Origin: Pseudorhodobacter aquimaris
GTDB lineage: Bacteria; Pseudomonadota; Alphaproteobacteria; Rhodobacterales; Rhodobacteraceae
Assembly (NCBI RefSeq): GCF_001202025.1
Contig: NZ_LGHS01000013.1
Coordinates: forward strand, 1-49,191
Length of the DNA stretch: 49,191 bases
Direction of reading: 5' to 3'
The translations under genes and the position numbers were made by a program. The notes beneath the pieces are model-generated. The model saw nothing but the letters and a program-made list of their open reading frames with translations. It was not told where the DNA came from and made no database searches. Positions 24,030 through 42,382 of the stretch are shown one piece after another. Each line of letters starts with the position of its first letter. Positions within the stretch are counted from its first letter, which is position 1.

Positions 24030-24076
24030 CTCATAACCTGAAGGTCGTAGGTTCAAATCCTACTCCCGCAACCAAA
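24030..24076 (+). repeat. tRNA-fMet 3'-half fragment, attachment-site repeat 1
   Basis: The sequence runs from the anticodon loop (CTCATAACC, anticodon CAT) through the T arm (GGTTCAAATCC) to CCCGCAACCA, matching the 3' half of bacterial initiator tRNA. The 5' half is absent. It differs by one base from the copy at 42,336-42,382 (CTACTCCCG here, CTACCCCCG there). This is what site-specific integration at a tRNA 3' end leaves behind: probable right attachment site of the left element and left boundary of the central element. Confidence 0.85.
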
Positions 24077-24114
24077 CTTTCGAACAAGATATCAAAGGCT
24101 TAGGCCGATGCAAG

Positions 24115-24135
24115 GCGCCCCGAGGGGCGCTTTTT
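24115..24135 (+). terminator. Rho-independent terminator after tRNA fragment 1
   Basis: A perfect 7-bp stem GCGCCCC / GGGGCGC with a GA loop is followed by TTTTT (24,131-24,135). Its position 39 bases after the tRNA fragment suggests it once ended the tRNA transcript or insulates the element boundary. Confidence 0.85.
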
Positions 24136-24322
24136 GCGTTGCAACACAGAACAACACGTTTCTTCGCGATTCCAAACGCTTACAGCCGTTCCTATTTCTT
24201 CCGTGCAACACCCATGCGACATGGAAATTATTGGATGTTCGTGGGGCGTTCCGTGTACGAATGAGCTTGACCTCTCGACCCGCGAGAGCTGTCATGTCCT
24301 CGAAACCAAATCGGGGACCATC

Positions 24323-24538
24323 ATGCCTAAGACCAATGACGCCGCGCTGGACGCCTTCATTGCCGCAAAGGCCGAAATCGACACGATGCTTGGGCGGCTG
24401 GTGGCGCACAGCGCCGACCACTTCGGATCCAGCCCCGAGGAGGTGAACTGGGGCCATGTCGGCACGCTGGACCACTATCGCGGCCGCCTCCGCGAAATCA
24501 CCGCCATGGCATTCTGCGAGGGCGAGCACGCCGACTGA
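24323..24538 (+). CDS. Small conserved hypothetical protein
   Basis: A 71-aa product starting MPKTNDAALDAFIAAKAEID and ending FCEGEHAD. It is helical, acidic and resembles a small hypothetical protein I associate with Rhodobacterales genomes and prophages (INWGHVGTL-type centre; here VNWGHVGTLDHY). The start ATG 24323 was chosen because upstream in-frame codons cover the tRNA flank and terminator area. It faces the opposite way to the head genes and lies at the left edge of the central element. Function unknown. Confidence 0.65.
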   Translation: MPKTNDAALDAFIAAKAEIDTMLGRLVAHSADHFGSSPEEVNWGHVGTLDHYRGRLREITAMAFCEGEHAD

Positions 24539-24624
24539 TCACAGTCCCAAGCTTCAGCCGCCACCTCGCTGGTCAGGGAGGGGGCAAAAAACAGGGATGC
24601 TGTGTGCCACAACATCCCGGCCGA

Positions 24625-24939
24625 CTATACTGGCTGGCCAAAGCACGTCCCCATGGCCAGCTTGCTGATGGCCGCGTGCGCACCCGTCAGGTGTTGATCC
24701 GTCGGCAGATTCCAAGTTGGCAACAGCCCGGCGATAGCCGCCATGTGGTTTTCCAACTCACCGATGACCATGTTGATGTTCCATGTCCCGTCGTATTCGA
24801 CTGCCGCCTTCCGAAGATCGGCGCACAGGGCAATGATCGCTGCATAGTTGCGCGTCGCGTCAAGCTGGCTTGCATCCTTCGTGTCTCCGACCAACAGGGT
24901 GAGACCATTCAGAATGGCATGGATATCTCGCTCCATCAT
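24625..24939 (-). CDS. Unknown late phage-type protein
   Basis: The 104-aa product starts at ATG 24939, overlapping the stop of the DUF2190 gene (ATGA). It is helical with no motif I recognise. It is the last gene of the head operon, where lambda-like phages encode head completion or connector proteins, so a connector or tail-adaptor role is possible from position only. In a tailless satellite this would be the natural spot for a protein that joins the satellite head to a helper tail. Confidence 0.62.
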   Translation of the reverse strand: MMERDIHAILNGLTLLVGDTKDASQLDATRNYAAIIALCADLRKAAVEYDGTWNINMVIGELENHMAAIAGLLPTWNLPTDQHLTGAHAAISKLAMGTCFGQPV

Positions 24940-25280
24940 GCTGCCACGGTCCCCACGCCATCCAGCCTAACAGCTACGTTGGTGATGCCGTTTCCGGCAG
25001 CCTCAGTCGCGATGCCCACCGGGAAGCGTCCAGTGCCCGGCACGTTGATGTTCTTGGCCGTGTTGTCCCACGCCACGCGTGCGCCGACCGTCAGAACTGC
25101 AGTGGTGGCTTTCGGTAGCTGATAGACGCCGGTGGTTGCCAGTTCGAGCGGATCGCCCGCGATGGCCGCATAGGCGGCGATGCCGAAGATATTGCCGATG
25201 ATCGTCCCCTCGCCGGAGGCGATGCCGCCTGCGGGAGCGGCCACGGTGATGACGTCGCCGTTCTGAATATAGGTCTTCAT
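24936..25280 (-). CDS. DUF2190 family head protein (capsid decoration-like)
   Basis: The 114-aa product begins MKTYIQNGDVITVAAPAGGI and continues with GEGTIIGNIFGIAAYAA, VYQLPKATTAVLTVGARVAWDNTAKNI. This alternating beta pattern is the DUF2190 family, found beside major capsid genes and related in fold to decoration proteins. ATG 25280 lies 2 bases after the stop of the head-tail joining gene, and its stop overlaps the next gene. It probably stabilises the capsid surface. Family call is good; role is by homology and context. Confidence 0.85.
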   Translation of the reverse strand: MKTYIQNGDVITVAAPAGGIASGEGTIIGNIFGIAAYAAIAGDPLELATTGVYQLPKATTAVLTVGARVAWDNTAKNINVPGTGRFPVGIATEAAGNGITNVAVRLDGVGTVAA

Positions 25281-25282
25281 GG

Positions 25283-25492
25283 TCAGAGCCCTTTCGAGGA
25301 TTGGATGCGAACCACGGTGGTGCGCGCCGTGGTGCCGGTGATCTGGCGGTTCAGGTCGCCCAGCGCGGCCGCCATTTCCGCGTCGGTCGTATAGGTGACC
25401 CGCTTGCCGTCATATTCGACGGTGCGGATGCCCTGATAGCGGGCGGCCATCAGGGCGTCGCGCCAGGCGGTGAGTTGGGCGACATCGGCCAT
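25283..25492 (-). CDS. Phage head-tail joining protein (gpW-like)
   Basis: The 69-aa product MADVAQLTAWRDALMAARYQGIRTV plus TYTTDAEMAAALGDLNRQI matches small gpW-like joining proteins of lambda-type phages: two helices around a short beta hairpin. In lambda, gpW binds the portal after packaging and is needed for tail attachment. The ATG shares its A with the stop of the protease-capsid gene (TAATG). A head-tail joining protein in an element without tail genes suggests that it accepts tails made by another phage. Confidence 0.82.
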   Translation of the reverse strand: MADVAQLTAWRDALMAARYQGIRTVEYDGKRVTYTTDAEMAAALGDLNRQITGTTARTTVVRIQSSKGL

Positions 25493-27294
25493 TACGCGCC
25501 TGCGTTCTGGAACCAGCCGCGGTGGTCGATGAAGCCCGCGCCGAAGTCGAGGATCACCCGGATTTCAACACCATCCACATCCCAGCCGGAGCGGCTTTCC
25601 ACCTGTGGCCCTTCGTTGCCCGAGAGATAGGCGAACTCGAGGCCGTCGATCTCGCCGGGGTCGGCGGTCACGTACCAGCGGGTCGCGCTGGACAGGCGAG
25701 GTTCGACAACCAGCGACATCGCGCCCGAGAAGGGGTTCACATCCGCCGCCGTGGCGGGCGCGATGGTGGCGAGCCACTTCTCGGCTACCGTCTCCAGCGC
25801 TGGTGGCACCAGCAGGTTCTTCGGCGTGACGCGGATGATGCGACCGTCGATCCCCTTCTGGGTGCGTAGCGCCAGCCGGGCTGCGGACAGGGTGGCATCG
25901 GAAATCACAGCGCCGCTCGCCGCCTTGTTGCCGTGATCGACATGGAACAGCGCCTTGGTGTCCGAGAGGGTCGGACCGTTGCCGCTATTCGCCTCCAGCA
26001 GCGTGATGAGAATCCGCGCCTCGGTCTCGGCGGCCCCTTGGCCCATGCGGCGGGCGAGGTCCGAGAAGGCCCCGAGGTCGTCGTTCACCAGAACCTGCCT
26101 GGTGATCCCGATCTTCTTGGCCCAGGTCTCGATCTTGTAGGCTTCGCGCGCCTCGGCCATTGTCCCGGCCTTGATCTCGCCGTGCTCGTTCAGCTTTTCC
26201 AGCAGCGGGGCCTCGCCCAGCATGATCTTGTTCACCGACCGGAAATCCCGCGCCGAAGTCTGGCGGCCGAGCCGACGGATGCCGGAAGGGGCCGCCTGGT
26301 AAGCGTCGCGCAACACGCGGCCCACAGTGTTGCCGAGGATGATCGGGAAATCCGAGGTCGTATGCAGGGCGCGGGTGACCAGGCTGGCGGGCGACAGAGC
26401 CATGGTGGACTCGCCGCGCAGGGTCAGCAGTTCCTTGGCCATGTCCACCGGTGTGGAATAGGCATAGCGCCGCGCCGGTTCGGAAAGTTCGTGGCGCGGG
26501 TTGATCCGGGCATAGAGGGCCTCGCCCATCTGGCGGGCGCGAAGGGCGGGGTCATCCTGGCTTTCGCCCATCTCGACGCGCACCTGTTCGGTGCGGATCG
26601 TGGGCGCGCTGCGGCTGGCCAGCACCTCAAAGGCGGCACGACGCGCGGTGTCGGCATCTGCTGCGGTGTCGATCTGCCCGTCGATCCATGACTGGTCCAG
26701 CCCGGCGATGCGGGCGATGGAGCGGATCTCGGTATTGATCACGGCGCGGCTCTGCGTCTCGGGCAGCGCAGGGGTGACGGTGGTGTCGGTCATTTGGGTC
26801 TCCATGCGGATGCGGGCACCCAGGTCAGCCGGGGTGGGGACAAGGGAAATTTCGTGTGGGGTCCAGCGGCTGGCGGTCAGGACGCGTGCGCCGTTCTCGG
26901 TCGTCTCGGCCCATTCCTCGACTGAATAGCCAACCGAGACATGGCGCAGGATCCCAGACAGCACGTCCTGCCAGAGCGGTTCCACCTCGGGGCGCGATGA
27001 GAAGCGGATAAGGGCCGTGCCGCGGTGGCCATCGACGGTTGCGGATTGCACGCTGCCTAGTACGTCGCGGACAGCGGATTGACGGTGGGCATCAAGAACG
27101 CTGGCCCCTTGGAGGCGCGACAGATCCACTGCTTCCGGCGCAAGGCTGAGGCGTTCGACATACGGACCCGCCATGTCACGGCGGCGCACGGGCGCGCCGG
27201 TGGACCAGATCACCTCGACGGTGCGGGCTTGCGCGTCTGCGCTGGCCGGGGCCATGTCGGCGCGGCGCGTCAGCAGGGTGACGATGTCATTCAT
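25492..27294 (-). CDS. Prohead protease / major capsid protein fusion
   Basis: The 600-aa product has an N-terminal HK97-type prohead protease (about 1-165): VEVIWSTGAPVRRRD, then VLDAHRQSAVRDVLGSV (catalytic His), then LIRFSSRPEVEPLW and HVSVGYSVEEW (Ser). A linker precedes the C-terminal major capsid protein (about 270-600: ALSPASLVTRALHTTSDFP through LVEPRLSSATRWYVTADP). In most phages these are separate genes; a fused form is known in some alphaproteobacterial phages. The protease should cut the scaffold-like linker during assembly. ATG 27294 has AAGGAAG nine bases upstream and overlaps the portal gene by 8 bases. Confidence 0.9.
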   Translation of the reverse strand: MNDIVTLLTRRADMAPASADAQARTVEVIWSTGAPVRRRDMAGPYVERLSLAPEAVDLSRLQGASVLDAHRQSAVRDVLGSVQSATVDGHRGTALIRFSSRPEVEPLWQDVLSGILRHVSVGYSVEEWAETTENGARVLTASRWTPHEISLVPTPADLGARIRMETQMTDTTVTPALPETQSRAVINTEIRSIARIAGLDQSWIDGQIDTAADADTARRAAFEVLASRSAPTIRTEQVRVEMGESQDDPALRARQMGEALYARINPRHELSEPARRYAYSTPVDMAKELLTLRGESTMALSPASLVTRALHTTSDFPIILGNTVGRVLRDAYQAAPSGIRRLGRQTSARDFRSVNKIMLGEAPLLEKLNEHGEIKAGTMAEAREAYKIETWAKKIGITRQVLVNDDLGAFSDLARRMGQGAAETEARILITLLEANSGNGPTLSDTKALFHVDHGNKAASGAVISDATLSAARLALRTQKGIDGRIIRVTPKNLLVPPALETVAEKWLATIAPATAADVNPFSGAMSLVVEPRLSSATRWYVTADPGEIDGLEFAYLSGNEGPQVESRSGWDVDGVEIRVILDFGAGFIDHRGWFQNAGA

Positions 27295-28696
27295 CTGGGA
27301 TGTCTTCCTTCTTGACAGGCGGCGCACCGAAAGTCAGGCCCAGCGCGTCGGTGCGTGCCTTGTCTGCGGCGATCTCGGCATCAACCTGTTCGGCGTCGTA
27401 GCCCCGTTCGGAAATCGCCTGACGACGGCTTTTGAGACCGGCGTTGATAGCGAGGATCTCTGCCTCCACGTCCTTCTTCGGATCGACGTAATCGAACTTG
27501 GGCGGCAGCCATTCGCAGGCGAGATACGCCGCAGGATCGCGGTCGAAATCGCGGGCGGGCAGATCGCCCGACAATACCGCTAGCCGCACGAAGCGTTCCC
27601 AGACCGGGCGGCAGAACAGATGGACGACGACATTGTGCTGCAACTGCTCGACCCGGCGGCGAAACTCGATTAGCCCAGCGCGGATCGAGGAATAGGTGAC
27701 ACCCTCCAGATCGCCGGAGACCAGTTCATAGGGCAGGCCCATGCCGGCAGCCACGGCGCGGAGGTGGTTCTTGACGAACGGGCCGTAGGCGTCGCTCTCG
27801 GTCGGGTTGGAAAAGCGGATATCGGTGCCGGGCGGTAGTGGGATGAGGCTGCCAGGCTCCATGCCGACAGTCAGTGCGCCGTTGGTGTTTGTGCCGGTCA
27901 GACCCCCTGCCGTGCCGTCGGGATCGGTGATGAAACCGGTGAACAGGGCTGCCACCTTGGCCTTCACCAGTGCCGCATCCTCGAACTGGTCTAACTCATG
28001 CAACCGCAGCAAAACCGGAGCAAGCCACGTGATCCCGCGCAACTGTCCAGCGGCCAGCGGCTTGAACAGATGCAGGCAATCTGTGGCGGGGATGCGCAGA
28101 GGTTCCAGCCGCAACGAGGTCAGCGGATCGCCGGGCCGTTCCCTCATCATCCAGTAGGCGGCGCGTTGCCCAGCGCTGTTGAACTCGATCCCCGCCCGGA
28201 CGCGCGCACCGCCGCCGATGTCGCGATGCAAGTCCAGCGGCACCTGGTCCCGGTCCAGCAGGTCGATGTGCAGGGGGACAGCCGTACCGTCGGGCACGAC
28301 GCGCAGACGGGCGAAACTTTCGCCGCCCTCTACCATCGCCCGCACGGCCATGGCCTGCAGCCCATAGAAATCCGCCAGCCCACCCGGATCGGCATGATCT
28401 GTCCAGCGCAGCCACAGAACCTGCAGCCGTTCGCGCACGGCGCGGTCGGGATGTGTAGATTGCGGTTTGATCCCGGCCCCGACGACATTGCCGACCAGGC
28501 TGTCCACCGCCGCCGATACCCATGGATTGTTTCGTGCATACCATCCGGCTCTGCGTGCTGCAGTCGTAGCACCCGATAGGATCGCCGTGTTCAGCCCATC
28601 GACCGTGCGTTGTCCCTCCCAACGGCGACCACCACCCGCAGCGTCAAACGCACGGGTGCCGGGGCGGCCGAACAGGCGGTAGATCAGGTTGCGCAT
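27287..28696 (-). CDS. Phage portal protein (lambda family)
   Basis: The 469-aa product MRNLIYRLFGRPGTRAF matches lambda-family portal proteins. Hallmarks are ARRAGWYARNNPWVSAAVDSL, GAGIKPQSTHPD, a middle beta region with RLRVVPDG and HIDLLDRDQVP, and the late GLPYELVSGDLEGVTYSSIRAGLIEFRR. The portal forms the dodecameric ring at one capsid vertex where terminase docks and DNA enters. ATG 28696 was chosen over upstream codons because the family normally starts here. It is first of the head operon after the restriction-modification cargo; a promoter or read-through from the terminase genes must supply transcription. Confidence 0.92.
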   Translation of the reverse strand: MRNLIYRLFGRPGTRAFDAAGGGRRWEGQRTVDGLNTAILSGATTAARRAGWYARNNPWVSAAVDSLVGNVVGAGIKPQSTHPDRAVRERLQVLWLRWTDHADPGGLADFYGLQAMAVRAMVEGGESFARLRVVPDGTAVPLHIDLLDRDQVPLDLHRDIGGGARVRAGIEFNSAGQRAAYWMMRERPGDPLTSLRLEPLRIPATDCLHLFKPLAAGQLRGITWLAPVLLRLHELDQFEDAALVKAKVAALFTGFITDPDGTAGGLTGTNTNGALTVGMEPGSLIPLPPGTDIRFSNPTESDAYGPFVKNHLRAVAAGMGLPYELVSGDLEGVTYSSIRAGLIEFRRRVEQLQHNVVVHLFCRPVWERFVRLAVLSGDLPARDFDRDPAAYLACEWLPPKFDYVDPKKDVEAEILAINAGLKSRRQAISERGYDAEQVDAEIAADKARTDALGLTFGAPPVKKEDIPDE

Positions 28697-28979
28697 GAGG
28701 GCAGAGTCGCATGGAGTGACAGTAATCGGATACTGGGAATCATTTGTAACGTACAATCAGGACGCGTGTATCCAAGCCCCAAGATTTCTCTCGCCACAGT
28801 TGACGATATGCCGCGCAAAGCGGAACTGGGATATATTCGCAGTGGTCGACGCATTCGAAATTTTGCGAAAAACCGCTAGGGCTATTCCAGAAAACGCATC
28901 CGTGATACGGCCATTTACGGCGAGAGGCTGAAAGCAGCTCTTGCCGCATTGATTGATTAAGCAGTAGGGCGCGGACGGT

Positions 28980-30389
28980 ATGGCAAATGTTAAGAACGGT
29001 GACGGCAAGCTTCCCGGTAAGACACTCTATGCAGGCCGTAGGCGAGAAACGACTCGGAAATCAGGCTTCTCAGTTCACTCGAACACAACCGGTGGGGAGT
29101 TTAAGCGCCACTCCGAGAACACATACGATCTGTTGGCCGGTGAAGTTTTAGGAATGTCTTTCACGATCGATGGACATGCAAGCGGAGACATCCTCGGATA
29201 TGGAGCTTGGGTGCTGTGCGATGGAAATGTTGATCTCACAATAACTGGCGGGCCAGCGAAACGCACACAGACCAACTATGAATATCCTTCTTGGAACAAA
29301 TTTGGTTCCATTTGGCGCGCCGAAACAGACGTCCCGGTTCAGATACATGCGATTCTTGCTGCAAAGACAATTTCAAGTGTCGCGATCTACATGCAATCTT
29401 GTGGAAAGATCAGGCACAAGTATCTTGATGATGCGCGCCCCGAGCTGATGAAGAATATGTACCAGTTTTCGCCCGAATCTATCTTTCTGGGAGATGATCC
29501 AGGCGGTGCAGTAGAGATAATAGCACCGCGTCCAAGCGGCTCTGAACATGAAAACATTTTGCTGAAGTCTTGCAACCGCTGTGGACGCTATCTCCCTGTT
29601 AATATTGGCAATGAACGAGATCATCTTAGTTTCAGCAATCACTGCGTAGCGGAGCATCGCCGCCCCTGCAGTCATGGAAGCTTTGGTCGACTCCGAAATT
29701 CTGAGGACGAAGCGGATTTCCTGAAATTGGATTACGGATTTCAATTGGAATGTCGATTTTGCAAGAAGTTCGAAGTGAATGCTGCGCACAATCCGCAACG
29801 AAGTTCAGCCCAGATGAAAGAGGACGGCGCGAGACGCCGGGCATTCGAGCTTCTTCTTGCTGATCTATATGGAGGAACGCCCCAACTACGATACCGGCAT
29901 GCAAACGGCAAGGAACTTGCCGATATGGTATGGACTCGCTTCAATGGTCACTGTTTTCGATGCAACGCAAAGCTGTTGTCGGCAAGGGCGATGCATCTGG
30001 ATCACACGCGTCCGCTGGCGCTTCTTTGGCCTTTGGACGGGAGTGCTACCGCACTATGCGGATCCTGCAACTCCGAGAAAAGGGACCGCGCGCCAGCCGA
30101 CTTCTACACAGCTGAAGAACTCGCACGACTTGCTGAGATTACAGAGGTTCCTCTTGCTGACCTTCAGAGTCTTCGGCCCAACGAACAGGCAATAAAAGAG
30201 CTACTTTCTCGCTTGGTTTGGTTCTTTGAAGAATTTCTTCAGCGCCCAGAGATGACCAAAGAGAGGGACGGAAAAGTAGCTGGCCATCTTGTCATAAAAG
30301 CGCTGCACAAGGTGCTTGCCAGAAGCGAATTTTACTCAGGCATTGATCTTGTAGAGGAATATAGCCGGGGCGGATATGTGGATCGTTAA
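28980..30389 (+). CDS. HNH endonuclease, probable restriction enzyme
   Basis: The 469-aa product has a central cysteine-rich segment (CNRCGRYLP near 198-206, LECRFCKKFEVN near 257-267) and an HNH site: GHCFRCNAKLL (C325, C328), HLDHTRPLALLWPLD (HLDH at 339-342) and LCGSCNSEKRDR (360-370). This zinc-stabilised HNH form, with an LDHTRPL strand and GSCNSEKR helix, is typical of type II restriction endonucleases. Residues 1-170 look beta-rich and may read the DNA site. It is convergent with two methyltransferase genes; the stop codons are 1 base apart (30,389 and 30,391). Together they make a plausible restriction-modification system. Confidence 0.8.
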   Translation: MANVKNGDGKLPGKTLYAGRRRETTRKSGFSVHSNTTGGEFKRHSENTYDLLAGEVLGMSFTIDGHASGDILGYGAWVLCDGNVDLTITGGPAKRTQTNYEYPSWNKFGSIWRAETDVPVQIHAILAAKTISSVAIYMQSCGKIRHKYLDDARPELMKNMYQFSPESIFLGDDPGGAVEIIAPRPSGSEHENILLKSCNRCGRYLPVNIGNERDHLSFSNHCVAEHRRPCSHGSFGRLRNSEDEADFLKLDYGFQLECRFCKKFEVNAAHNPQRSSAQMKEDGARRRAFELLLADLYGGTPQLRYRHANGKELADMVWTRFNGHCFRCNAKLLSARAMHLDHTRPLALLWPLDGSATALCGSCNSEKRDRAPADFYTAEELARLAEITEVPLADLQSLRPNEQAIKELLSRLVWFFEEFLQRPEMTKERDGKVAGHLVIKALHKVLARSEFYSGIDLVEEYSRGGYVDR

Positions 30390-30390
30390 C

Positions 30391-31572
30391 CTATAAAGGA
30401 GTCAGAACAAGATAGGAGTGGCCACTCACAGTTCCCTTGTCACGAATTCCGTGCGACTCGCAATGTTCAACACCCTCAATGTAGAAGTCCTCTACGTTGA
30501 ACCATGGACTTGCCCGATTGGATAATTCGCTTCCCATGTCACATTTTGGGCTCTGTCCAAGATGCATAACCATAACACCGGTTTCGGAGATCTGCTGGCG
30601 CGCGTGATCAAAAAACACTTTATATATGTCAAGATTGATCTTTTGCCTCGTTTCAACAAAATCCTTAGGTTGCAAGTCGAAGTCAGCCCGCTCCCATCCC
30701 GCAAACCAGAAACGCATCCAGTTGGCCATATAAAATCTTGTCGAATCAAAAAACGGTGGCGATGTAATTATCGCGTCAGCCTTTGGCATTTCTTCCGGCC
30801 ACTTTTCAGTCGTGTCTGACTGAAACGAGCCACCAAACGACCGAGACGGATTTCCAATTTCTTCGCTAAGGCGCGCAATTTTAGCCCGAAGTCGGGGTAA
30901 GAGAGCCCGATACTCGAAGTCACCAGTTGGTTTAAATGGCGTCACGGGGTGGCTTCTTCTGCTAAGCGCATAGGGCCTGTTTCCGTGCAAGAGATGCAAG
31001 GTGCAGGCAAACAGGAGCGCCCATTCGGGACTGCTATCCCATCGATCTAAGAAGAACTGTCTCGCGGCAAGTATTTCCTTCATTGTTTCCGGATGAAAGT
31101 AGTCTGGTATAGGACTATTAAACCTAACCAATGAGGCACGGTTCAACTGGTCGTCTGTCATCTCAAATGCTTCAATTGATTCCCCGAGCTCAGAAATCAA
31201 TGAATCAACTCGAGGTGGCGCAGTCATTGCCACCTTTGCAAAAGTGAGAATGTGTCCTAGTCTGGAGATGTCTACACCAAAGCCGCGCCGCTGCATTCGG
31301 CATGCTTCAAACGGAATGGTTCCCGCACCTGAGAAAGGGTCGACTACGACCTCTCCAGGTCGAGAAAAGCATTCAATCAGATGATGAGCAAGCGCAGGCT
31401 TCATCTTTCCCTGGTAGGAGCACATCGAGTGACCAGCGCCACCCCATTCACGTTTTGAAAATGGGGGTTGCTGATGAGGCAAGTTGCGCTTGAACGCTTC
31501 CCATGATTGCTCCCATCGATTCTCATAGTTTCGGCGAAGTGGGGGAGCACGGAATTCTGTTGAAACGCTCAT
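30391..31572 (-). CDS. DNA methyltransferase (TSPPF type)
   Basis: The 393-aa product has the AdoMet motif VVDPFSGAGTIPFEACRM near residues 75-92 and the catalytic motif ADAIITSPPF near 265-275, with motif I first and IV later. The SPPF form fits N4-cytosine or related amino-methyltransferases. It follows the second methyltransferase gene by 4 bases and is convergent with the HNH gene. Two methylases with one nuclease are usual where the recognition site is asymmetric and each strand needs its own enzyme (family knowledge). AT-rich codons set the cassette apart from the GC-rich phage genes around it. Confidence 0.85.
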   Translation of the reverse strand: MSVSTEFRAPPLRRNYENRWEQSWEAFKRNLPHQQPPFSKREWGGAGHSMCSYQGKMKPALAHHLIECFSRPGEVVVDPFSGAGTIPFEACRMQRRGFGVDISRLGHILTFAKVAMTAPPRVDSLISELGESIEAFEMTDDQLNRASLVRFNSPIPDYFHPETMKEILAARQFFLDRWDSSPEWALLFACTLHLLHGNRPYALSRRSHPVTPFKPTGDFEYRALLPRLRAKIARLSEEIGNPSRSFGGSFQSDTTEKWPEEMPKADAIITSPPFFDSTRFYMANWMRFWFAGWERADFDLQPKDFVETRQKINLDIYKVFFDHARQQISETGVMVMHLGQSPKCDMGSELSNRASPWFNVEDFYIEGVEHCESHGIRDKGTVSGHSYLVLTPL

Positions 31573-31576
31573 TCAG

Positions 31577-33138: not shown

Positions 33139-33245
33139 TACGGTTGCGACCCTTCGTATTTCTTCATGGATGTTTTCGTTGGGTTCGACGCTGAAGGCAA
33201 GGATGAAGTGTGATTTTCCATGATCTATTGGACAGACGGATCTCG

Positions 33246-35045: not shown

Positions 35046-35544
35046 CGCCGAAACTCCCCAACGGCATGTCGGCCAGATATTCCAGATGCTCGCGCATCAT
35101 TCGGTCGAGAGCTGCGAAGGTCGCGCGCGGATCGGCCCCGACTTCGGCGGCCAGCAGGGGGGCGGTGCGCTGGACCCATGCCATGTGCGCGTCGCGTTCG
35201 GCGCGGGCGCGGGCAAACACCGTACGGGTGGCGGCAACGGTTTCAATCAATTGACCCTGCTCTCGTTCAAACGCCAGCTTGGCACGCTGCACTTTGACGA
35301 TTTCATGCATACGCTTCGCTTCGGCCAGCGTGATGCCACTGCGGGCAGGGGCGACCGTGCCACCCTTGTTGCGGCGAGAGGGATCAAGGTTGTCCTCGAT
35401 CCATGCCAGGCCCAGCGCCACGTCGATCTGACCATCAGCGCGCACCGGCAGACCCTCGGCCACCAGTTGTGAGATGCGTCCCTTGGTCAAACCGACACGT
35501 GTGGCGAAAGCGGTCTTGCTCTCTGAAGTGTTGAGTTTAGTCAA
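35035..35544 (-). CDS. Terminase small subunit (Nu1-like)
   Basis: The 169-aa product begins with a Nu1-type helix-turn-helix (TAFATRVGLTKGRISQLVAEG, then VRADGQIDVALGLAWIEDN). A long coiled helix follows (LAEAKRMHEIVKVQRAKLAFEREQGQLI) and then a C-terminal region that binds the large subunit. It recognises the packaging site (cos in lambda-like systems). The start is TTG 35544: AGGGGG lies at correct distance, and TTGA overlaps the stop of the preceding ORF. Its DNA site is usually upstream of or within this gene, so the 35,545-35,970 region is the prime candidate. Confidence 0.85.
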   Translation of the reverse strand: MTKLNTSESKTAFATRVGLTKGRISQLVAEGLPVRADGQIDVALGLAWIEDNLDPSRRNKGGTVAPARSGITLAEAKRMHEIVKVQRAKLAFEREQGQLIETVAATRTVFARARAERDAHMAWVQRTAPLLAAEVGADPRATFAALDRMMREHLEYLADMPLGSFGDGA

Positions 35545-35969
35545 TTCCGCCCCCTGACGCTGGACGGGTCATGCGCTGTGCTCCCCCGCATACAAACCGG
35601 CCCAAAAGGAACCATCGCTATCCCGGTCCTTGCCGAACTGTCTGGGTTGACGTGCTCGTGCATCGCAACGTCACCGCGCGAAGACAACCGTGGGTCCGGG
35701 TCTGTCAGCTTTGGGTCCGAGTTGGGTCCGGGTTTGAGTGCGCTGCAACCCGTTGGAATCGTTGAGTGGGTCCGGGTGGTCCGGGTGGGTCCGGGTCTGT
35801 TCATTACCTTTTCATAGCGTCCCCGCTCGTCCCATTCTAAATTGATTTCTGCAAAAGACCCGGACCACCCGGACCCACCCGGACCCAGCATTGATTTTGT
35901 TGGAGAATTTGAGATGCTTAGACCCGGACCCAACCCGGACCCAAAGCTGACAGACCCGGACCCACTCAT
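35541..35969 (-). CDS. Low-complexity ORF across the iteron cluster
   Basis: A 142-codon frame starts at ATG 35969 with AAGGAG eight bases upstream and an ATGA overlap with the primase stop. It ends in a TTGA overlap with the small terminase start, so it joins two genes in one coupled operon. The translation is dominated by the GGGTCCGGGT repeats (GSGSVSFGSGLGPG and similar), with a short distinct tail (MVPFGPVCMRGSTAHDPSS). It may be a real small protein, or only a translated bridge over a DNA site. I cannot decide from sequence. Confidence 0.45.
   Translation of the reverse strand: MSGSGSVSFGSGLGPGLSISNSPTKSMLGPGGSGWSGSFAEINLEWDERGRYEKVMNRPGPTRTTRTHSTIPTGCSALKPGPNSDPKLTDPDPRLSSRGDVAMHEHVNPDSSARTGIAMVPFGPVCMRGSTAHDPSSVRGRN
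35573..35615. repeat. Copy 2 of the motif shared with 3596-3639
   Basis: GCGCTGTGCTCCCCCGCATACA and AGGAACCAT match the copy near the ParB-methylases of the left element. Here it lies about 30-70 bases upstream of the small terminase start, a typical position for a cos or pac signal. Function is inferred. Confidence 0.45.
35691..35964. repeat. Nested inverted GGGTCCGGGT repeats, putative replication origin
   Basis: Outer arms 35,691-35,734 and 35,921-35,964 are inverted copies with 42 of 44 matching bases. Inner arms 35,766-35,798 and 35,855-35,887 are also near-perfect inverted copies built from GGGTCCGGGTGG units. Between the inner arms lies an AT-richer 55-nt segment (TTCTAAATTGATTTCTGC). 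Two iteron sets around an AT-rich core, next to a primase-helicase gene, resemble satellite origins such as those of SaPIs. Direct binding by the primase is inferred. Confidence 0.7.
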
Positions 35970-38179
35970 GCCACCTGCTCCTTGTCGAGGCCGTCACGCC
36001 GATACCGGCGTTCGCGCTGGGCATTGTCACCGTGGCCACCGACACGGGCGCGGAACTGCCGGAAGCCCATGCTGGTGAGGGTGCGCACGACGCGGTTCTG
36101 ATCTGCCTGCGCCCAGCGCCCCCGTTCCATGCCCAGTGCTTTCTCAAGGATCTCCGCGACGGACACACCATCCTGCTGTCCTGCGGTGTGTTCGAGATAG
36201 CGGCGGATCGGATCGTCCCATGCATCGCCTTGGTATCGGTCTGCCTGCTGCTCTGCAGCCAGCGCTTCGAGGCGTTGATCGTCCAGCCACCAAGGGTCGC
36301 CAGCGCGAAACCGCAGGCAGGCCTCGGCCCAAAGTTGGTCGCGGTCCCGCTCGATGGCTGCGATGTCTATGGCACCGCAGGCAACGGGCCAGAACCGGCG
36401 GCCACCGGTGGCATCTTTCAGGTAGCCGCCCTCTGGATTGACGCTGCCCGCGAACACGCATTGGCGCGGCAGGTCCACCAACCGCTTGCCATAGGGCGGG
36501 CGGAAACGATCAGCGGTGCGGCTGATGAAGGCCTTGATGGTGCCGACCTCTGCGCGGGTCATCGTGTCCAGTTCGGCAATTTCGATGATCCAGACGCTTC
36601 TGGTCTCCATCGCAGCATCCTTGCTTCCAAGGTCGGACAAGCGGTCGGTGAACCATGGATGGCCCATGATCTGCAGGGCGCTGGACTTCTTGATCCCCTG
36701 CGGGCCTTCCAGGATAAGGGCACAATCCACTTTCGCGCCGGGGCGATAGATGCGCGCCACGGCTGAAATCAACCACCGTGCGCCAACAGCGCGGGCGTAC
36801 GCGCTGTCCGTTGCTCCGAGATAGGTTGAAAGCCAGGCGTCGATCCGCTTCACGCCGTCCCAGCGGAGTGCGTCGAGATATTCCCGGACGGGATGGCACA
36901 GCCGGTCACGCGCAACCGCCTCCACCGCCTGACCGGCGATGGAGGCAGGCACCAGGATGCCTTGGTGTTGGAGCCAGTCAGCGACCAGCAGGTCATCGCG
37001 GTCTGACCACTCTGTATCGTGCCATTTGCCATTGACTGTGGCCCATGGTGGCGGTTTGCGTGCGACAGTGGTGGCGGCAAATTCGTCATGCCAGAGCACG
37101 CCCCTCCATTCAGGCGCTGTACGCAAGGCAAGGATCGCATTGGCAAGAATGGGACGAGGTTCGCCCTCCCGGTTGGTCAGAAGGTCAAGGTGCCAGTCGC
37201 TAGCCTTGGCTTCAGAAGCATTGGAAAGATTGATCAGATCACGGACGGCCTGCTCTCCATTGGCGCGCAGCACATCGTTGAAATCCGAGCCCTCGGGCGG
37301 ATCCGCAACAGCAACGCAATGGCCCCGACCGCGAAGCAACGTGACGGCATTCTGGCGCTGATGATGGGCCTTGCTGCCTGGTGCATCGCCGTCGCCTGCG
37401 ATCACGACGAGGTTGCCATAGGGCACGGGTGCCCGCGCGATATTGGCGATACCGAGACAGGCCCAAGTCTCCCGTCCAGTGGCCTGCCAGATGGAAAGAG
37501 CGTTCTCGACGCCTTCGCACAGGATCAGTGGTCCGGTGCCGGGCAAGCGCACGGCGGCGCGTTCCGACCAGCCATCGACGGCTTTGTTGGTTCGCTTGAC
37601 GACCTTCACCGGAGCTTTTTGTCCGTCATCAGTGAGATAGACCTGTTGCACCGCCAAGACCCTACCGACCTCGTCTGTCGCCAGCGCCACCAGCGCGCCA
37701 TGCTTTCCTGCGGCAAACCGACGAAACCGGATGCAGTCGGGTGGCGTGATGGTGATACCGCGGTTGCGCAGGTAGGTCTCTGCCGGAGTTGCCGCGATGC
37801 CCTCCAGACAAGCGATGATCTCGGCCACGGCCTTCTTGCTGTCCATGGTGCTCGGTGCCGCAGCCGCTGTTTGGGGCGGCCGTTGTTGAATGTCGCCGAT
37901 CCAGTCGCGCGCCCAGCGCCGGGCCTCTGCATCGGACAGGCCTTTGTGGTGCCGGATCAACTCCAGCCCATCGCCGCCGACGCCCGCCTCGTGGTCATAC
38001 CAACGCCCAGCGCGTGGCCCTGCGATCTCGATGGCCACGCTGCCCTTGGTACCATAGCGAAGCTGGCATTTTGTCGAGTAGCCCGGATTGGGATCACCCA
38101 TCAGCGACTGCGCCAGATCGGCCATGCGTTTATTGACGCGTGCAGCCAGGTCGGCGACCGAGGCTGGGTTGCTGATCAA
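35966..38179 (-). CDS. Toprim/VapE-like primase-helicase
   Basis: The 737-aa product has an N-terminal DNA-binding-like region (GRWYDHEAGVGGDGLELI), a Toprim domain (LILCEGVENALS at 218-229, AGDGDAPG at 261-268, SDFNDVL near 298-304) and a VirE/VapE helicase-type domain with P-loop EGPQGIKKSS (491-500) and VWIIEIAELD (529-538). This is the phage-satellite type of primase-helicase that starts element replication. The start is TTG 38179: AGGAG sits eight bases upstream, and TTGA overlaps the preceding stop. The origin-like repeats begin right at its stop. The P-loop reads GIKKS rather than G-x-GKS, as in many VapE proteins. Confidence 0.85.
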   Translation of the reverse strand: MISNPASVADLAARVNKRMADLAQSLMGDPNPGYSTKCQLRYGTKGSVAIEIAGPRAGRWYDHEAGVGGDGLELIRHHKGLSDAEARRWARDWIGDIQQRPPQTAAAAPSTMDSKKAVAEIIACLEGIAATPAETYLRNRGITITPPDCIRFRRFAAGKHGALVALATDEVGRVLAVQQVYLTDDGQKAPVKVVKRTNKAVDGWSERAAVRLPGTGPLILCEGVENALSIWQATGRETWACLGIANIARAPVPYGNLVVIAGDGDAPGSKAHHQRQNAVTLLRGRGHCVAVADPPEGSDFNDVLRANGEQAVRDLINLSNASEAKASDWHLDLLTNREGEPRPILANAILALRTAPEWRGVLWHDEFAATTVARKPPPWATVNGKWHDTEWSDRDDLLVADWLQHQGILVPASIAGQAVEAVARDRLCHPVREYLDALRWDGVKRIDAWLSTYLGATDSAYARAVGARWLISAVARIYRPGAKVDCALILEGPQGIKKSSALQIMGHPWFTDRLSDLGSKDAAMETRSVWIIEIAELDTMTRAEVGTIKAFISRTADRFRPPYGKRLVDLPRQCVFAGSVNPEGGYLKDATGGRRFWPVACGAIDIAAIERDRDQLWAEACLRFRAGDPWWLDDQRLEALAAEQQADRYQGDAWDDPIRRYLEHTAGQQDGVSVAEILEKALGMERGRWAQADQNRVVRTLTSMGFRQFRARVGGHGDNAQRERRYRRDGLDKEQVA

Positions 38180-38421
38180 AGATCACGCTCCTGCGCCTCG
38201 ATCCACTCGATCAGCTTGCTTTTGCGGGCGCAGATGACATTGCCGATCCTGAACACCGGCATCCGCACCTTGGCGTCGCTGGCGTAGTAATAGACCTTGC
38301 GGCGGTGGCGCACGTTGCCAAACACAAAGATCGCGATGGCCTCGGCCCCATGCAGCAGGTCGTCGGCAAGCGTTGGGCAAGCGTCTGCGGTCGCAGGCGT
38401 GCCCCGCGTTTGAATGTTCAT
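38176..38421 (-). CDS. Small DNA-binding protein (AlpA-position regulator)
   Basis: The 81-aa product has a C-terminal helix-turn-helix-like part: AEAIAIFVFGNVRHRRKVYYYAS, then MPVFRIGNVICARKSKLIEWIEAQE. Similar small proteins precede primase genes in alphaproteobacterial phage elements and are likely transcription or replication regulators. ATG 38421 was chosen; the stop overlaps the primase TTG. The final WIEAQE pattern is shared with the excisionase family. Confidence 0.75.
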   Translation of the reverse strand: MNIQTRGTPATADACPTLADDLLHGAEAIAIFVFGNVRHRRKVYYYASDAKVRMPVFRIGNVICARKSKLIEWIEAQERDL

Positions 38422-38446
38422 GGCTGTCTCCGTTGTGGCTAGGTGG

Positions 38447-38902
38447 TCAGTCGGCGCTGAGGGCTTTTGTGACCCGCCGCTCAATGTCGTTCAGGTTCAC
38501 GACCGCAAAGGAGCGAACCTCTGGATCGGCCGCAATCTCGGGAAGACGTTGGGGCGAGATGATCTTCGACGCAGGGGCGGGAATATCCGAGTCCATAAAG
38601 GCCGCGTCCTCTTGTGACGAAAGCCGGATCGGGCCTTCGTAAATCACCAGCAAGGCGTCGCCATCGGCAACCCCGTGCAGATTGCCAATGTGCGGCGCGA
38701 CTCGCGCAGGCTCAAACCCAAGACGTGCGAAGTCGACAATCACACCGAGGGCGATGGCGTCCGGCATTGTGAAAATCCGGGCCTTGCCACGTTCGCACTC
38801 GTTTTGCGGAACAAGGTAGCCGCGCGAAATCCAGGCGTCGATTTGGTAGCGGCCAATATTGAAGGCGTCGGCCAGCTTCTGGATGGTAATGTCTTGTGCC
38901 AT
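38447..38902 (-). CDS. MerR-like regulator, putative satellite switch protein
   Basis: The 151-aa product begins with a MerR-type helix-turn-helix: ITIQKLADAFNIGRYQIDAWISRGYLVP, then ARIFTMPDAIALGVIVDFARLGFEP. The C-terminal half (about 75-151) is unknown and could be a sensing or dimer domain. AGGA lies eight bases before ATG 38902. It is first of the leftward early operon and directly faces a perfect 13-bp inverted repeat and the divergent integrase gene, so it is the best candidate for the factor binding that operator. In satellites such a regulator keeps the element silent until a helper phage signal arrives (inference). Confidence 0.78.
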   Translation of the reverse strand: MAQDITIQKLADAFNIGRYQIDAWISRGYLVPQNECERGKARIFTMPDAIALGVIVDFARLGFEPARVAPHIGNLHGVADGDALLVIYEGPIRLSSQEDAAFMDSDIPAPASKIISPQRLPEIAADPEVRSFAVVNLNDIERRVTKALSAD

Positions 38903-38913
38903 TCCACTATCCT

Positions 38914-39035: not shown

Positions 39036-40139
39036 ATGGCGACCATTCGCAAACGCACGCTGCCCTCGGGGCTGATCCGCTGGCAGGTGGATTTCACCGA
39101 CCAGGCTGGAAAGCGGCGGTCCAAGCTGTTCCCGCGCCGCAAGGATGCGGATGTCTATCTGGTGAAGGTCCGCTCGCTGGTCGCCAACCACACCTATCTG
39201 GCCGACAGCGACAGCACGACGGTGGCCGATGCCGCAAAGGCTTGGCTCGACCATTGCGAGGTGCGCTGCAAGACGGGGCGACGGATGGAGCGGTCCACCC
39301 TTCGCGGCTACAGCGACTATGTGCGGCTGCACATCACCGCGCCCGAGATCGGCATCGGGGACAAGCTGATCGCCCAATTGACCCGCCGCCATGTCAACGA
39401 ACTGCGCGACCGGCTGCTGCTGAATGGCCGCTCCGAACACCTGACCCGCCGCGCGCTGTCGGTGCTGAAGCTGGCGCTGGACCACGCCATCGACAACGGC
39501 CAGCTGTTCACCAATGCCGCCCAAGGGGTGCGGGTGATCAAGTCCAGCCGGATCGAGCACAAGGCCCCGGTGCCGACGAAGGAAGCGATCCGCGCCCTGA
39601 TCGAGGCGGCCGACGAGGATTTCAAACCACACCTGATCGTCTCGGCGCTGGGCGGGCTGCGGGCATCCGAACTGCGGGGCTTGCGCTGGCAGGACATCGA
39701 TTTCGACAAGGGCTTCTTGCACATCCGCCAGCGCGCCGACGCGTACAACCAGATGGGCGAGCCGAAATCGCGGGCAGGGTTCCGCGACATCCCCGCCGGG
39801 CCGATGGTTCTGAACGCCCTGCGCCGATGGAAACTGCGCTGCCCGAAAAGCGAACTGGGGCTGGTGTTCCCCGCGCCGCAGGGCGGCATCCTGCAGCACA
39901 CCCGCACGCAAGACCGGTTCCGCAAGCTGCAGGAAAAGGTCGAGGTGACGATGCGCTGGCACGACTTGCGCCACTTCGCCGTTTCGCTCTGGATCGAGCA
40001 GGGGTTCTCGATCAAGGAAATCATGACCTTCGCAGGCCACTCCTCCATTCAGATGACGATGGAACGGTATGGGCATCTGTTCCCCTCGCCAGACCACCAG
40101 AAGGCGATGGCCATGGTCGAGGCGAAGCTGATGGGTTAG
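39036..40139 (+). CDS. int: Tyrosine integrase of the central element
   Basis: The 367-aa integrase has an N-terminal arm-binding domain (IRKRTLPSGLIRWQVDFTDQ, then KRRSKLFPRRKDADVYLVKV), a core-binding domain (about 65-165), and the catalytic domain with GGLRASELRGLRWQDID (Arg), RWHDLRHFAVSLWIEQG (His, Arg), IKEIMTFAGHSS (His) and MTMERYGHLF (Tyr). ATG 39036 is preceded by GAAGGAAAG. It should act at the tRNA-fMet 3' end, the fragment 2.2 kb to the right. It differs clearly from the P4-type integrase of the left element, although both elements end in the same tRNA fragment. Confidence 0.93.
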   Translation: MATIRKRTLPSGLIRWQVDFTDQAGKRRSKLFPRRKDADVYLVKVRSLVANHTYLADSDSTTVADAAKAWLDHCEVRCKTGRRMERSTLRGYSDYVRLHITAPEIGIGDKLIAQLTRRHVNELRDRLLLNGRSEHLTRRALSVLKLALDHAIDNGQLFTNAAQGVRVIKSSRIEHKAPVPTKEAIRALIEAADEDFKPHLIVSALGGLRASELRGLRWQDIDFDKGFLHIRQRADAYNQMGEPKSRAGFRDIPAGPMVLNALRRWKLRCPKSELGLVFPAPQGGILQHTRTQDRFRKLQEKVEVTMRWHDLRHFAVSLWIEQGFSIKEIMTFAGHSSIQMTMERYGHLFPSPDHQKAMAMVEAKLMG

Positions 40140-40297
40140 CGATTGTTCTCCATCTGACACGTCATTCCAAATGGTGAACAGGTGCGCCCTGCTTATGTCA
40201 TGTCGGGCGAAGCCCCGTAGCTGCACCTTGGCAAAACGGATGTCTGCGCGAAGAGGCCATCGCCAACCTTCGCAGACCCGAAGAATGACTTGGTCAA

Positions 40298-41911
40298 TTA
40301 GAGCTCCATGATCTTGGCATGAAGGCCGGCAAATAGAGATCGTACAAAATCCAGTGCGGCCTCGTCCTTTGTGAGCAAGTGTTGAACGGCCTTCTGGTAG
40401 TCGGCGACTGAACGAAGATTTAGCGCTCGTGCAATTTGATTGCGCGCACCACACTCGCGGATCGGGCAAAAGGCGAGTACGGCCTCCCAGTTGCCTTGGT
40501 CGAGAGCAGCCGATAACTCTTGCTGCCTTTGTGCCATAAGTGCCGCACTGTCCACGTTGATTTGTACGTTCACGCCGTTGAGGTATTCGTCCCCGTCGGG
40601 CAACTGATTCATGATCTCCTTGGCTACTGCCTTCTTGACCGCCTTGCTACATAGTCGATGGGCGTCAGCGCGAACCTCATTTATTCCAGCGGCCAGGGCC
40701 GCGTTGATCAATGCTTGTGCGTCGTCACCCGACACGCCCGCCTGTGCACGAGCGACCATTTCGATCAACCTTGGATGGAAGTAGATCGCTTCGACCGAAT
40801 AGTACGGTACAGCATAGACCCCGTATGCGACCTTGGCCGCAATGGTAGCCGCGTCGTAGCTGTCGCTGTCAACGATCCCAAGCGCCCGCAGCCAATGGAA
40901 CTGCTCACCGGCAGTCACACCGGCTACTGCCTGTTCAACCTCGCGGCAACTGCCCTTCGGGATTACCGACACCTGCGGGAAGATCAGACTGTAAAGTGGC
41001 TTGTCAAGGCTGGCTTCGGTCCCCTCAACAAACAGTATTTTCCGCCGTGCTCCAAGAAGGTCACGCTTGAGGATGTCATCCAGAGGTGCGTTCGCAACTA
41101 GTTCGTCTGCCTCCCAAGTTTGCGCGTGCTGACCATTGAAGTTGCAAGACCTTACGAGGAGAGTGCGAGCTTGCGGGTTCTCAACTGGCAGGTCATGGTC
41201 GTGGGTCGAAATGACGAAGGCGCAATCCGGTCGGCGGTCAAACAACTGGGTCAGCAGCGGAGATATGATTGATCTGTGAAGGTGTCGCTCAGGTTCATCT
41301 ATGATTATCAATGTTCCTGGTGGTGCGGTCAGCACCTCTCCTGCGATCATCAACGCGTTTCGCTCTCCGTCAGACAACTGAGCAGCACTGTATTCTGGTC
41401 CACCGTCCTTGCTTGCCATCACCCTCTCATTCGCTCGAATTGCAATCGCGATGGGAATATTTGATAGACGCAGAAGTTCATTTATCACGGCAAGCGGGGC
41501 ATCAATTTTCGACTTTGTGGTTGCGTCGAGTAGGCGACCTGCTGTCACGTCTGCGGCAATCTCGCGCGCACGAACGTTCTCTGCATCGATCAACTGAAAA
41601 ACAATAATGCTCGCGCGCTGAGCGCCGTATGTGTCCTTGTAGCGTGAATGTTCTTGTGACTCTTCGTTCTGAATGTTCTGCTCAGTCTGAGCCTTCTTTG
41701 CCGGTGTCATGTCGAGAGTATCTGATGACATCCAAGTCTGTCGGTGCGCAGCGATTTTTCTGACGTTGGGGCGGTTTTGGTTTGTGAACCGGTGCATCAA
41801 GCTCGACTTACCAACACCGTTGGCCCCTAAGACGAAGAGCATTTCGCCAGCTTCGAGCTGCAACTGAGCAAGGGCAGGATTCGTGCACGGGAAGTGGATT
41901 GGGAAAGGCAT
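40298..41911 (-). CDS. AAA ATPase with C-terminal Toprim/DUF4435-like domain
   Basis: The 537-aa product joins an ABC/AAA-type ATPase (Walker A LGANGVGKSS at 28-37, signature LSDGERN at 179-185, Walker B LIIIDEPERHLH at 201-212, STHDHD at 235-240) to a Toprim/DUF4435-like half starting KILFVEGTEASLDKPLYSLIF (292-310) with GIVDSDSYD near 345-353. ATPase plus DUF4435 nuclease is the composition of the PARIS defence system (AriA and AriB), which can be fused, and it is related to OLD nucleases. Length is short for a full fusion, so the family member is uncertain. It stands alone on the minus strand between integrase and the tRNA fragment, a typical satellite cargo position. Confidence 0.8.
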   Translation of the reverse strand: MPFPIHFPCTNPALAQLQLEAGEMLFVLGANGVGKSSLMHRFTNQNRPNVRKIAAHRQTWMSSDTLDMTPAKKAQTEQNIQNEESQEHSRYKDTYGAQRASIIVFQLIDAENVRAREIAADVTAGRLLDATTKSKIDAPLAVINELLRLSNIPIAIAIRANERVMASKDGGPEYSAAQLSDGERNALMIAGEVLTAPPGTLIIIDEPERHLHRSIISPLLTQLFDRRPDCAFVISTHDHDLPVENPQARTLLVRSCNFNGQHAQTWEADELVANAPLDDILKRDLLGARRKILFVEGTEASLDKPLYSLIFPQVSVIPKGSCREVEQAVAGVTAGEQFHWLRALGIVDSDSYDAATIAAKVAYGVYAVPYYSVEAIYFHPRLIEMVARAQAGVSGDDAQALINAALAAGINEVRADAHRLCSKAVKKAVAKEIMNQLPDGDEYLNGVNVQINVDSAALMAQRQQELSAALDQGNWEAVLAFCPIRECGARNQIARALNLRSVADYQKAVQHLLTKDEAALDFVRSLFAGLHAKIMEL

Positions 41912-42335
41912 CTGTCACTCGGCAACTTTTGGAGGGAACATCTGTATATAGTGGCTGATGCGGTGAGGGAAGCATGATAGCAGTGAGGCCATTTGTTTAA
42001 GAACTGTTTCCAGTTAGAGGTCGGGGGGCCGAAAGGCCGCAACGTCCCGCAGAGCTGACCGTCGCTTGTGCTCCGCCTGCATAGATCAGTGGCAAACCGG
42101 TCGGACCTTATATCGGTGAAGAGCCTATCAAGCATTTGGTCGAATGCATGGCAGTCAGTTCCCTGCATCATTAGTAACTCATGGCCATGGTCGCGGTGAA
42201 GCTGTTGGGGTGATGCGATTGCCGTTTCTTGCCAGCGGTTTGCGGCAGTTCCGTGCGACACGACGCCGACGTTGCAGGTCATAAAATCGGCTAAAATGCT
42301 GAAATTACGAAAGTATTCCGGACGCAGGGGTGACA
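41912..42335. other. Non-coding region before the right tRNA fragment
   Basis: No gene is supported in these roughly 420 bases. A minus-strand ORF covering most of it runs into the ATPase gene in another frame, and its translation has no recognisable pattern. The region probably contains the ATPase promoter and integrase arm sites. Confidence 0.5.
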
Positions 42336-42382
42336 CTCATAACCTGAAGGTCGTAGGTTCAAATCCTACCCCCGCAACCAAA
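42336..42382 (+). repeat. tRNA-fMet 3'-half fragment, attachment-site repeat 2
   Basis: Same 47-nt sequence as 24,030-24,076 with one difference, here with the canonical CCCCCGCAACCA end of initiator tRNA. The 5' half is absent. It marks the right end of the central element. Confidence 0.85.

Follow-up and report, generated by a model that had tools for sequence, protein, structure and literature searches.

A probable capsid-forming phage satellite at a tRNA-fMet site of Pseudorhodobacter aquimaris

Capsid-forming phage-inducible chromosomal islands (cf-PICIs) are described, in the published passages used here, as integrated islands that encode their own capsid, protease, portal, adaptor, and small and large terminase subunits (TerS and TerL), and that obtain tails from a helper phage (PMC10690885, PMC13230959). 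The cf-PICI capsids in the published tree belong to PF05065 (PMC13230959, as excerpted), and the host list quoted for these islands does not include Alphaproteobacteria (PMC10803314). Own capsid and packaging genes are also reported, in a quoted passage, for the Mulch and Flayer satellites of Streptomyces phages (PMC10690885), and an excerpt on P4 satellites describes defence cargo in hotspots, PARIS included (PMC9122126). Here we analyzed the element at positions 24030–42382 of Pseudorhodobacter aquimaris contig NZ_LGHS01000013.1. The window is the whole stretch of 49,191 nucleotides, which is an entire contig (C13) of the 3.8-Mb genome. We conclude that the 18.35-kb element is very probably a capsid-forming phage satellite. 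Its way of working would be that of a cf-PICI, and it is read as a parallel lineage because capsid family, terminase type and gene order differ from those of cf-PICIs. The original prediction, made from the sequence of this DNA, had proposed a member of the cf-PICI class or a parallel invention of it; this is supported, and the evidence favours parallel invention.

Head, packaging and integration genes between tRNA-fMet repeats

Genes of the window were identified by Pfam and PHROGs profile searches of open reading frames (ORFs). The core features of the element and its attachment (att) repeats are as follows.

24030–24076 (+), att repeat at the capsid-side end, 3' half of tRNA-fMet (repeat comparison)
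24936–25280 (−), head decoration or cement protein (PF09956, phrog_122)
25283–25492 (−), gpW-type head-tail adaptor Ad1 (phrog_2545), after the capsid gene and not before the portal gene
25492–27327 (−), fused protease and major capsid protein (PF04586 and PF25209; phrog_4523, E 3e-229)
27287–28756 (−), portal of the lambda family (PF05136)
33246–35045 (−), TerL of the GpA type, ATPase and nuclease (Pfam, PHROGs)
35035–35544 (−), TerS (phrog_57)
35545–35613 (−), candidate cos site, a 69-bp block with a GGTTCCT box (DNA conservation across the family)
35690–35965 (−), candidate replication origin, GGGTCC/GGACCC iterons and inverted repeats
35966–38179 (−), Toprim and VapE-like primase-helicase (Pfam, PHROGs)
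38176–38484 (−), small conserved protein, possible regulator (phrog_18541)
38447–38902 (−), small conserved protein kept in relatives, possible regulator
39036–40139 (+), tyrosine integrase (PF00589)
42336–42382 (+), att repeat at the integrase-side end (repeat comparison)

The profile matches agree with the genes named by the original prediction, namely integrase, Toprim/VapE, TerS, TerL, portal, protease-capsid fusion, gpW-like joiner and decoration protein, and they confirm its lambda GpA-type terminase and its fused protease-capsid protein. The capsid matched the Pfam families PF25209, PF10124 and PF04586 only, and no PF05065 match was obtained in the Pfam search. Searches against solved structures gave no close relative of the capsid, the adaptor or TerL; the best match was a Mu gpT-type capsid (E 0.002). 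The predicted origin-like repeats were found at 35690–35965 as 10 copies of GGGTCC/GGACCC (about 0.2 copies expected per 450 nt) together with long inverted repeats. As for the two predicted regulators, both small ORFs are present and neither has a Pfam family at E 0.01; the regulator role is unproven. No tail or lysis family was detected among the window ORFs with Pfam or PHROGs, in agreement with the predicted lack of tail, baseplate and lysis genes, and no gene for a stopper, a tube, a tape measure or lysis was recognised in the element.

The predicted 47-nt direct repeats were also seen. They are 46/47 identical with a spacing of 18,306, and both correspond to the 3' half of tRNA-fMet. The term tRNA-fMet fragments was correct, as ARAGORN gave no whole tRNA in the full window; in several relatives, the capsid-side copy belongs to an intact tRNA-Met(CAT). 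Six fMet elements of 17.4–19.9 kb carry repeats on both sides: that of the window (18.35 kb, repeat identity 46/47), G361 (17.4 kb, 47/47), G065 (18.2 kb, 47/47), G315 (17.4 kb, 43/47), G365 (17.65 kb, 39/47) and G386 (19.9 kb, 38/47). Where at least 3 kb of downstream sequence was available, the distance from the capsid to the fMet att was 1.0–2.8 kb in 11/11 viral contigs and 0.4–3.5 kb in 16/19 genome loci, some records being common to both sets.

Relatives, cargo and a candidate cos site

Of 394 genomes drawn from the family, 101 gave a capsid match at E 1e-20. The close form, 84–95% identical in the best segment, was present in at least 26 of the 394, own genome included, and the rest were more distant. 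A scan of IMG/VR yielded 156 relatives, of which 80 were kept. The named hosts include Fuscovulum, Rhodobacter, Rhodovulum, Paracoccus, Ruegeria and Albimonas, which we take to be Rhodobacterales, as well as Pararhizobium, Rhabdaerophilum and Pannonibacter (Hyphomicrobiales) and Zavarzinia (Rhodospirillales). Thus, the same head occurs in named species of three alphaproteobacterial orders. The weakest close-form capsid (77%) came from a Rhodospirillales metagenome-assembled genome (L184). Among 385 genomes drawn from the class, there were six capsid matches at E 1e-100, own included. All 155 capsid records from isolated phages were below 60% identity, the best reaching 37% with 94% of the query covered and 39% with 75% covered. 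One satellite record (L191) has a title naming the Firmicute Oceanobacillus, which is probably wrong.

The capsid dN/dS (nonsynonymous to synonymous substitution ratio) against the window was 0.06–0.13 in ten comparisons; by this measure, the core genes are under purifying selection. Between G361 and the window, dS was 0.09 for the primase and 0.94 for rpoB. The Zavarzinia element (G434, Rhodospirillales) shares 88.6% amino acid identity with the window in the capsid and 89.6% in TerL, and rpoB shares 71.4%. Because the capsid and TerL are far more alike than rpoB in this pair, the element, judged by these identities, has crossed bacterial orders.

In a capsid tree of 70 rows built by a quick method, the 19 fMet rows formed one supported branch (100*), and the tailed/tailless label, assigned before tape-measure genes were found in some members, required two changes. 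The tree leaves out L200, L201, L168 and C60, which are truncated, duplicates, or lack a capsid of this type. A single clade of 47 tailless rows, with L204 and L212 set aside, was not rejected (p-AU, approximately unbiased test, 0.53), nor was one of all 49 (p-AU 0.108). Since the fMet capsids are one branch and the tailless rows can be one clade, repeated recent deletions are argued against. The gpW-type adaptor lies upstream of the capsid in 15/15 tailed rows, 14 before the called portal start and one (G288) overlapping it, and after the capsid in 20/20 fMet rows where an adaptor was found. This order differs from that of the tailed relatives, and therefore simple deletion does not produce the satellite.

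In capsid orientation, the order in the fMet elements is slot 1, integrase, small ORFs, primase, terS, terL, slot 2, portal, capsid, adaptor, decoration, slot 3 and att, with the integrase on the opposite strand in 5/7 elements. Integrase and primase are of more than one type, and the stretch from terS to the decoration gene is constant. The original gene list missed the cargo of the window, which is given below.

40298–41911 (−), slot 1, PARIS-type AriAB fusion (AriAB E 6.7e-58, residues 22–517; Pfam AAA_21 and DUF4435)
28980–30389 (+), slot 2, HNH-like protein (weak HNH match, 8e-6)
30391–31572 (−), slot 2, DNA methyltransferase-like protein (Pfam, defence-profile search)
31577–32905 (−), slot 2, DNA methyltransferase (PADLOC MTase_II, E 7.7e-61)
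32902–33258 (−), slot 2, HTH_17 regulator (Pfam)

The gene at 40298–41911 has the AAA ATPase fused to DUF4435 by which PARIS is recognised. The slot 2 genes form a restriction-modification-like cluster (28980–33258) between terL and portal, in which the HNH-like protein is possibly the nuclease partner of the adjoining methyltransferases. Across the fMet elements the core is fixed and defence genes are exchanged at fixed slots; at least six of the eight elements looked at have DNA methyltransferase or restriction genes in slot 2. These include type IIG in G315, D12 and N6/N4 methylases with HNH in G365, a C5 methylase and an Eco57I-like gene in G065, a XamI nuclease with a methylase in G386, and an Eco57I-like gene in G318a. 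For G361 and G188, the one slot 2 gene searched in each gave only a SEC-C motif, where weak PADLOC matches also fell, or no match. Relatives with conserved ends and variable cargo, which the original prediction had proposed to look for, were found. In none of the six two-sided fMet elements was a complete set of tail and lysis genes seen between the repeats, the finding that was to count against the prediction. The 75 non-core genes of eight fMet elements matched 24 Pfam families at 1e-6, without any tail or lysis family, and with PHROGs no tail family was seen among 25 of the 56 families listed.

The 69-bp block starts with GGTTCCT and ends at the start of terS. A box GG[GT]TCC[CT] occurs near terS in 40/41 tailless rows, or 38/39 after removal of two duplicate records (about 3 expected), G357 being the row that lacks it. 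It is not exclusive to satellites, as it was seen in 3/16 tailed rows (about 1 expected). The box was chosen after inspection of this first set, whose count is not blind. In the further distinct upstream sequences outside the first set (43 after dropping five equal to first-set sequences), it was present in 43/43, at −67 to −69. In 42 aligned upstream sequences, crossing the block edge lowers the entropy from 1.29 bits to 0.32 bits; the values for the three codon positions are 0.40/0.27/0.31 in the block versus 0.23/0.08/0.56 in terS. Because the block has no third-position bias, the constraint acts on DNA. An ORF at 35541–35969 beside terS resembles a gene, but its last 69 bp lack third-position bias, and for this stretch a DNA site is the better reading. 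By analogy with lambda, we infer that the block is cos, since it adjoins the two genes of a GpA-type terminase.

A wider set of compact elements has 38–57% capsid identity to the window, and the adaptor is mostly after the capsid there too. In many, an integrase and a tRNA follow within about 2 kb; the tRNAs are those for Cys, Gln, Arg, Tyr, Lys, Ser, Glu, Phe, Gly, Leu and Met. Nine are bounded by long repeats (score at least 41) at 9.9–16.7 kb, and in nine others shorter repeats of 14–19 nt suggest about 11–13 kb. No tail gene was seen in seven of the nine bounded elements. Their 70 non-core ORFs, from which two ORFs straddling loci were left out, matched 16 Pfam families. PF10145 marks two of the ORFs as tape-measure-like, and TMP_3 matches one of them as well; no other tail or lysis Pfam family was found in the 70. 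PHROGs likewise gave tape-measure families in two members, among 25 of the 73 families listed. PF10145 was searched in 27 satellite-bearing genomes and matched in five, with none of the matches in the stretches used here (places compared by eye). Capsids with 35–40% identity and longer reading frames belong to tailed prophages or phages, in which the adaptor is upstream of the capsid.

Several neighbouring features were observed. An identical 21-nt repeat lies outside both att copies (23867–23887 and 42450–42470); perhaps these are integrase arm sites of stacked fMet elements. A small ORF just inside att (24323–24538, +) has 73–74% similar DNA on three contigs of the same genome (C47, C60 and C75), each of which also holds an fMet att copy. 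Directly outside the left att, 22607–23701 encodes a 364-aa protein with no Pfam match; its homologues follow the decoration gene in G386 (73%, inside the repeats) and G173 (88%, not bounded), and it may be cargo of a neighbouring element. Farther left, a further mobile defence island at 560–14324 comprises HsdR, HsdS and HsdM (type I restriction-modification), two N6/N4 methylases and an AAA ATPase, with an integrase nearby (15568–16860). At 19957–22056, an IS91-type Y2 transposase comes after a tyrosine recombinase-like gene. In G365, a contractile-tail sheath gene (C2:72896–73378) lies about 6 kb outside the weak left att of the satellite, which a second prophage may adjoin. The Rhabdaerophilum locus (L160:4825–14376) has a 3183-aa open frame at the satellite end that starts with a decoration-protein match, an odd fusion or an assembly error, and locus L170 has the appearance of an inverted assembly.

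Proposed life cycle, candidate helper and rival explanations

We propose the following course for the satellite. The tyrosine integrase would have placed the element in the tRNA-fMet site, where the att repeats are observed. Growth of a helper would lead to derepression, excision, and replication from the iteron region by the Toprim/VapE primase-helicase. The portal, the protease-capsid fusion and the decoration protein would build the element's own head, and its own TerS and GpA-type TerL would cut and package the DNA at cos just upstream of terS, where the genes and the conserved block are observed. The head would end with the portal and the gpW-type adaptor. As genes for a stopper, a tube, a tape measure and lysis were not recognised, the helper, presumably a siphophage, would have to supply the remaining neck, the tail and lysis. 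In a new host, the fixed-slot cargo (PARIS and restriction-modification-like genes here, other systems in relatives) would protect both element and host.

A candidate helper is present in the same genome. Contig C60, read at 8000–45751, carries a tailed prophage (8040–22793 and 39087–43573) with related TerS, GpA-type TerL, gpW-type adaptor and portal, with tube, chaperone and tape-measure genes and with an attachment protein; its adaptor precedes the portal, it adjoins an fMet att copy, and no capsid of this family was found in the stretch read. The tail tube of the C60 type was found in 18/26 genomes with fMet satellites versus 80/368 others (p 9.5e-7), and in 17/25 when the own genome was dropped (p 2.7e-6). 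The contractile sheath PF04984, used as a control, was found in 6/26 versus 42/368 (p 0.11). Genomes with compact elements, hand-picked by capsid identity and frame length, showed no clear excess of the tube (10/28, p 0.18). The fMet and compact elements co-occur in 5/26 versus 23/368 genomes (p 0.03). On this evidence, siphophages with the C60 tail type are the foremost helper candidates.

Other explanations were weighed against a satellite. One is a cryptic prophage, stripped of tail and lysis genes by deletion and decaying in place. It would account for a phage head and packaging module kept beside an integrase, and a few relatives (G101, G173, L200) are indeed broken. However, the tailless architecture recurs in many genera of three orders with intact genes under purifying selection, the fMet capsids are one clade at short distances from the att site, and the adaptor follows the capsid, an order that simple deletion from the tailed relatives does not yield. 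We regard this explanation as highly improbable. Slightly less probable still is a defence island spread by other means, in which the head proteins would serve, for example, to spoil the assembly of incoming phages. The PARIS and restriction-modification cargo and the tape-measure-like gene of two wider relatives fit this idea, and assembly interference is a known defence (PMC11364771, PMC10884400). Nevertheless, TerS, TerL, portal, capsid, protease, adaptor and decoration protein are kept together, along with the conserved block of DNA next to the packaging genes, and interference would need neither TerL nor a cos-like site.

The least probable explanation is an autonomous virus that releases tailless particles or particles with an unrecognised short tail. 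Its tail genes may be too diverged for recognition, and apparently tailless particles are mentioned, in the passage quoted, for alphaproteobacterial cultures, of Bradyrhizobium (PMC11599138). Against this, there is little room, since the space from the decoration gene to att holds variable cargo, and no conserved extra structural gene turned up among the bounded elements, nor any lysis gene among the non-core genes of the eight fMet elements. An interpretation as a gene transfer agent was dismissed by reasoning, since an integrase, att repeats and replication genes are all present in the element.

Several points weigh against the satellite interpretation. Excision, packaging and tail capture are deduced steps, and no excised (attP) arrangement was noticed in the viral contigs inspected by eye. 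Tail genes too diverged for Pfam, PHROGs and the two-phage tail profiles would escape detection. Two of the six fMet repeat pairs are weak (weak left repeat), and three loci (L160, L170, L187) lack a recognisable fMet att; these three did not match the tail profiles used, which were derived from two phages only. Among the compact elements, L199 (Bosea, 12930–14849) and L214 (Tianweitania, 6716–9460) carry a tape-measure-like gene, which could set or disturb the length of the helper tail; G717/L201, an uncertain member, has about 7.5 kb without assigned genes between the decoration gene and the integrase; and G458, L204, L212 and G368 are not bounded. All of these compact elements were labelled tailless in the tree. 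In the degenerate fMet relative G101, a broken satellite portal is joined to remnants of tube, chaperone and tape-measure genes (script coordinates 16252–18035); recombination of a tailed prophage with a satellite probably left this scar. Moreover, the co-occurrence of the tail tube may in part reflect genomes rich in mobile elements, and the statistics ignore the relatedness of the genomes.

Beyond the single element, we lean towards an old, independently evolved alphaproteobacterial class of satellites. It would be defined by a head with a GpA-type terminase and a fused capsid, the capsid family being different from that of cf-PICIs, would have at least two architectures (about 18 kb at tRNA-fMet; 10–17 kb at many other tRNAs), and would cross orders by means of borrowed helper tails. 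Some members have their own tape-measure gene, which could fix the length of the borrowed tail or spoil it.

Comparison with known satellites and phages

Literature on capsid-forming satellites of Alphaproteobacteria was not found among the matches listed in a search of the open-access literature. P4-like and classical PICI satellites reuse helper capsids, whereas the window element encodes its own; the likeness to them lies in defence cargo at hotspots, with PARIS among it. The neck, tail and lysis genes that a complete tailed prophage has within its att sites were not found in the fMet elements. The phages RcKemmy and vB_PsuS_Psul1 have homologous TerS, TerL, adaptor, portal, fused protease-capsid and decoration genes. 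In contrast to the window element, they carry neck, tail and lysis genes and have the adaptor ahead of the portal, and their capsids share about 35% identity with that of the window. Mulch and Flayer are likewise satellites with their own capsid and packaging genes, but no primase is recognised in them, their hosts are Streptomyces and their helpers are virulent phages; they are set apart here by description.

The closest likeness is to cf-PICIs. As in these, the window element is a discrete integrated island of similar size with an integrase and flanking att repeats, and it has its own major capsid, protease, portal, head-tail adaptor, TerS and TerL. The absence of tail, baseplate and lysis genes is also shared, as far as the window ORFs and the non-core genes of the eight fMet elements are concerned. 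The differences are as follows. The capsid is PF25209/gpT-like and fused to the protease, without a PF05065 match, and the terminase is of the GpA type. The packaging HNH of cf-PICIs has no counterpart in the shared core, only a weak HNH-like gene in a variable slot. The hosts here are Alphaproteobacteria. As to master regulators of the AlpA or Stl type, possible candidates are the two small ORFs, which have no Pfam family at E 0.01, and the HTH_17 cargo gene, which has a sub-threshold AlpA match.

If the satellite interpretation is true, a common vehicle moves restriction and PARIS systems among Alphaproteobacteria and across orders, and many "incomplete prophages" of 10–20 kb in these bacteria may be complete satellites. 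The candidate cos site, the candidate helpers in the same genomes, and the adaptor position that marks satellites versus phages provide testable material. The combination of an own head with stolen tails would then not be peculiar to the cf-PICI lineage; this strategy would have at least one further origin, in which both capsid and terminase are different.

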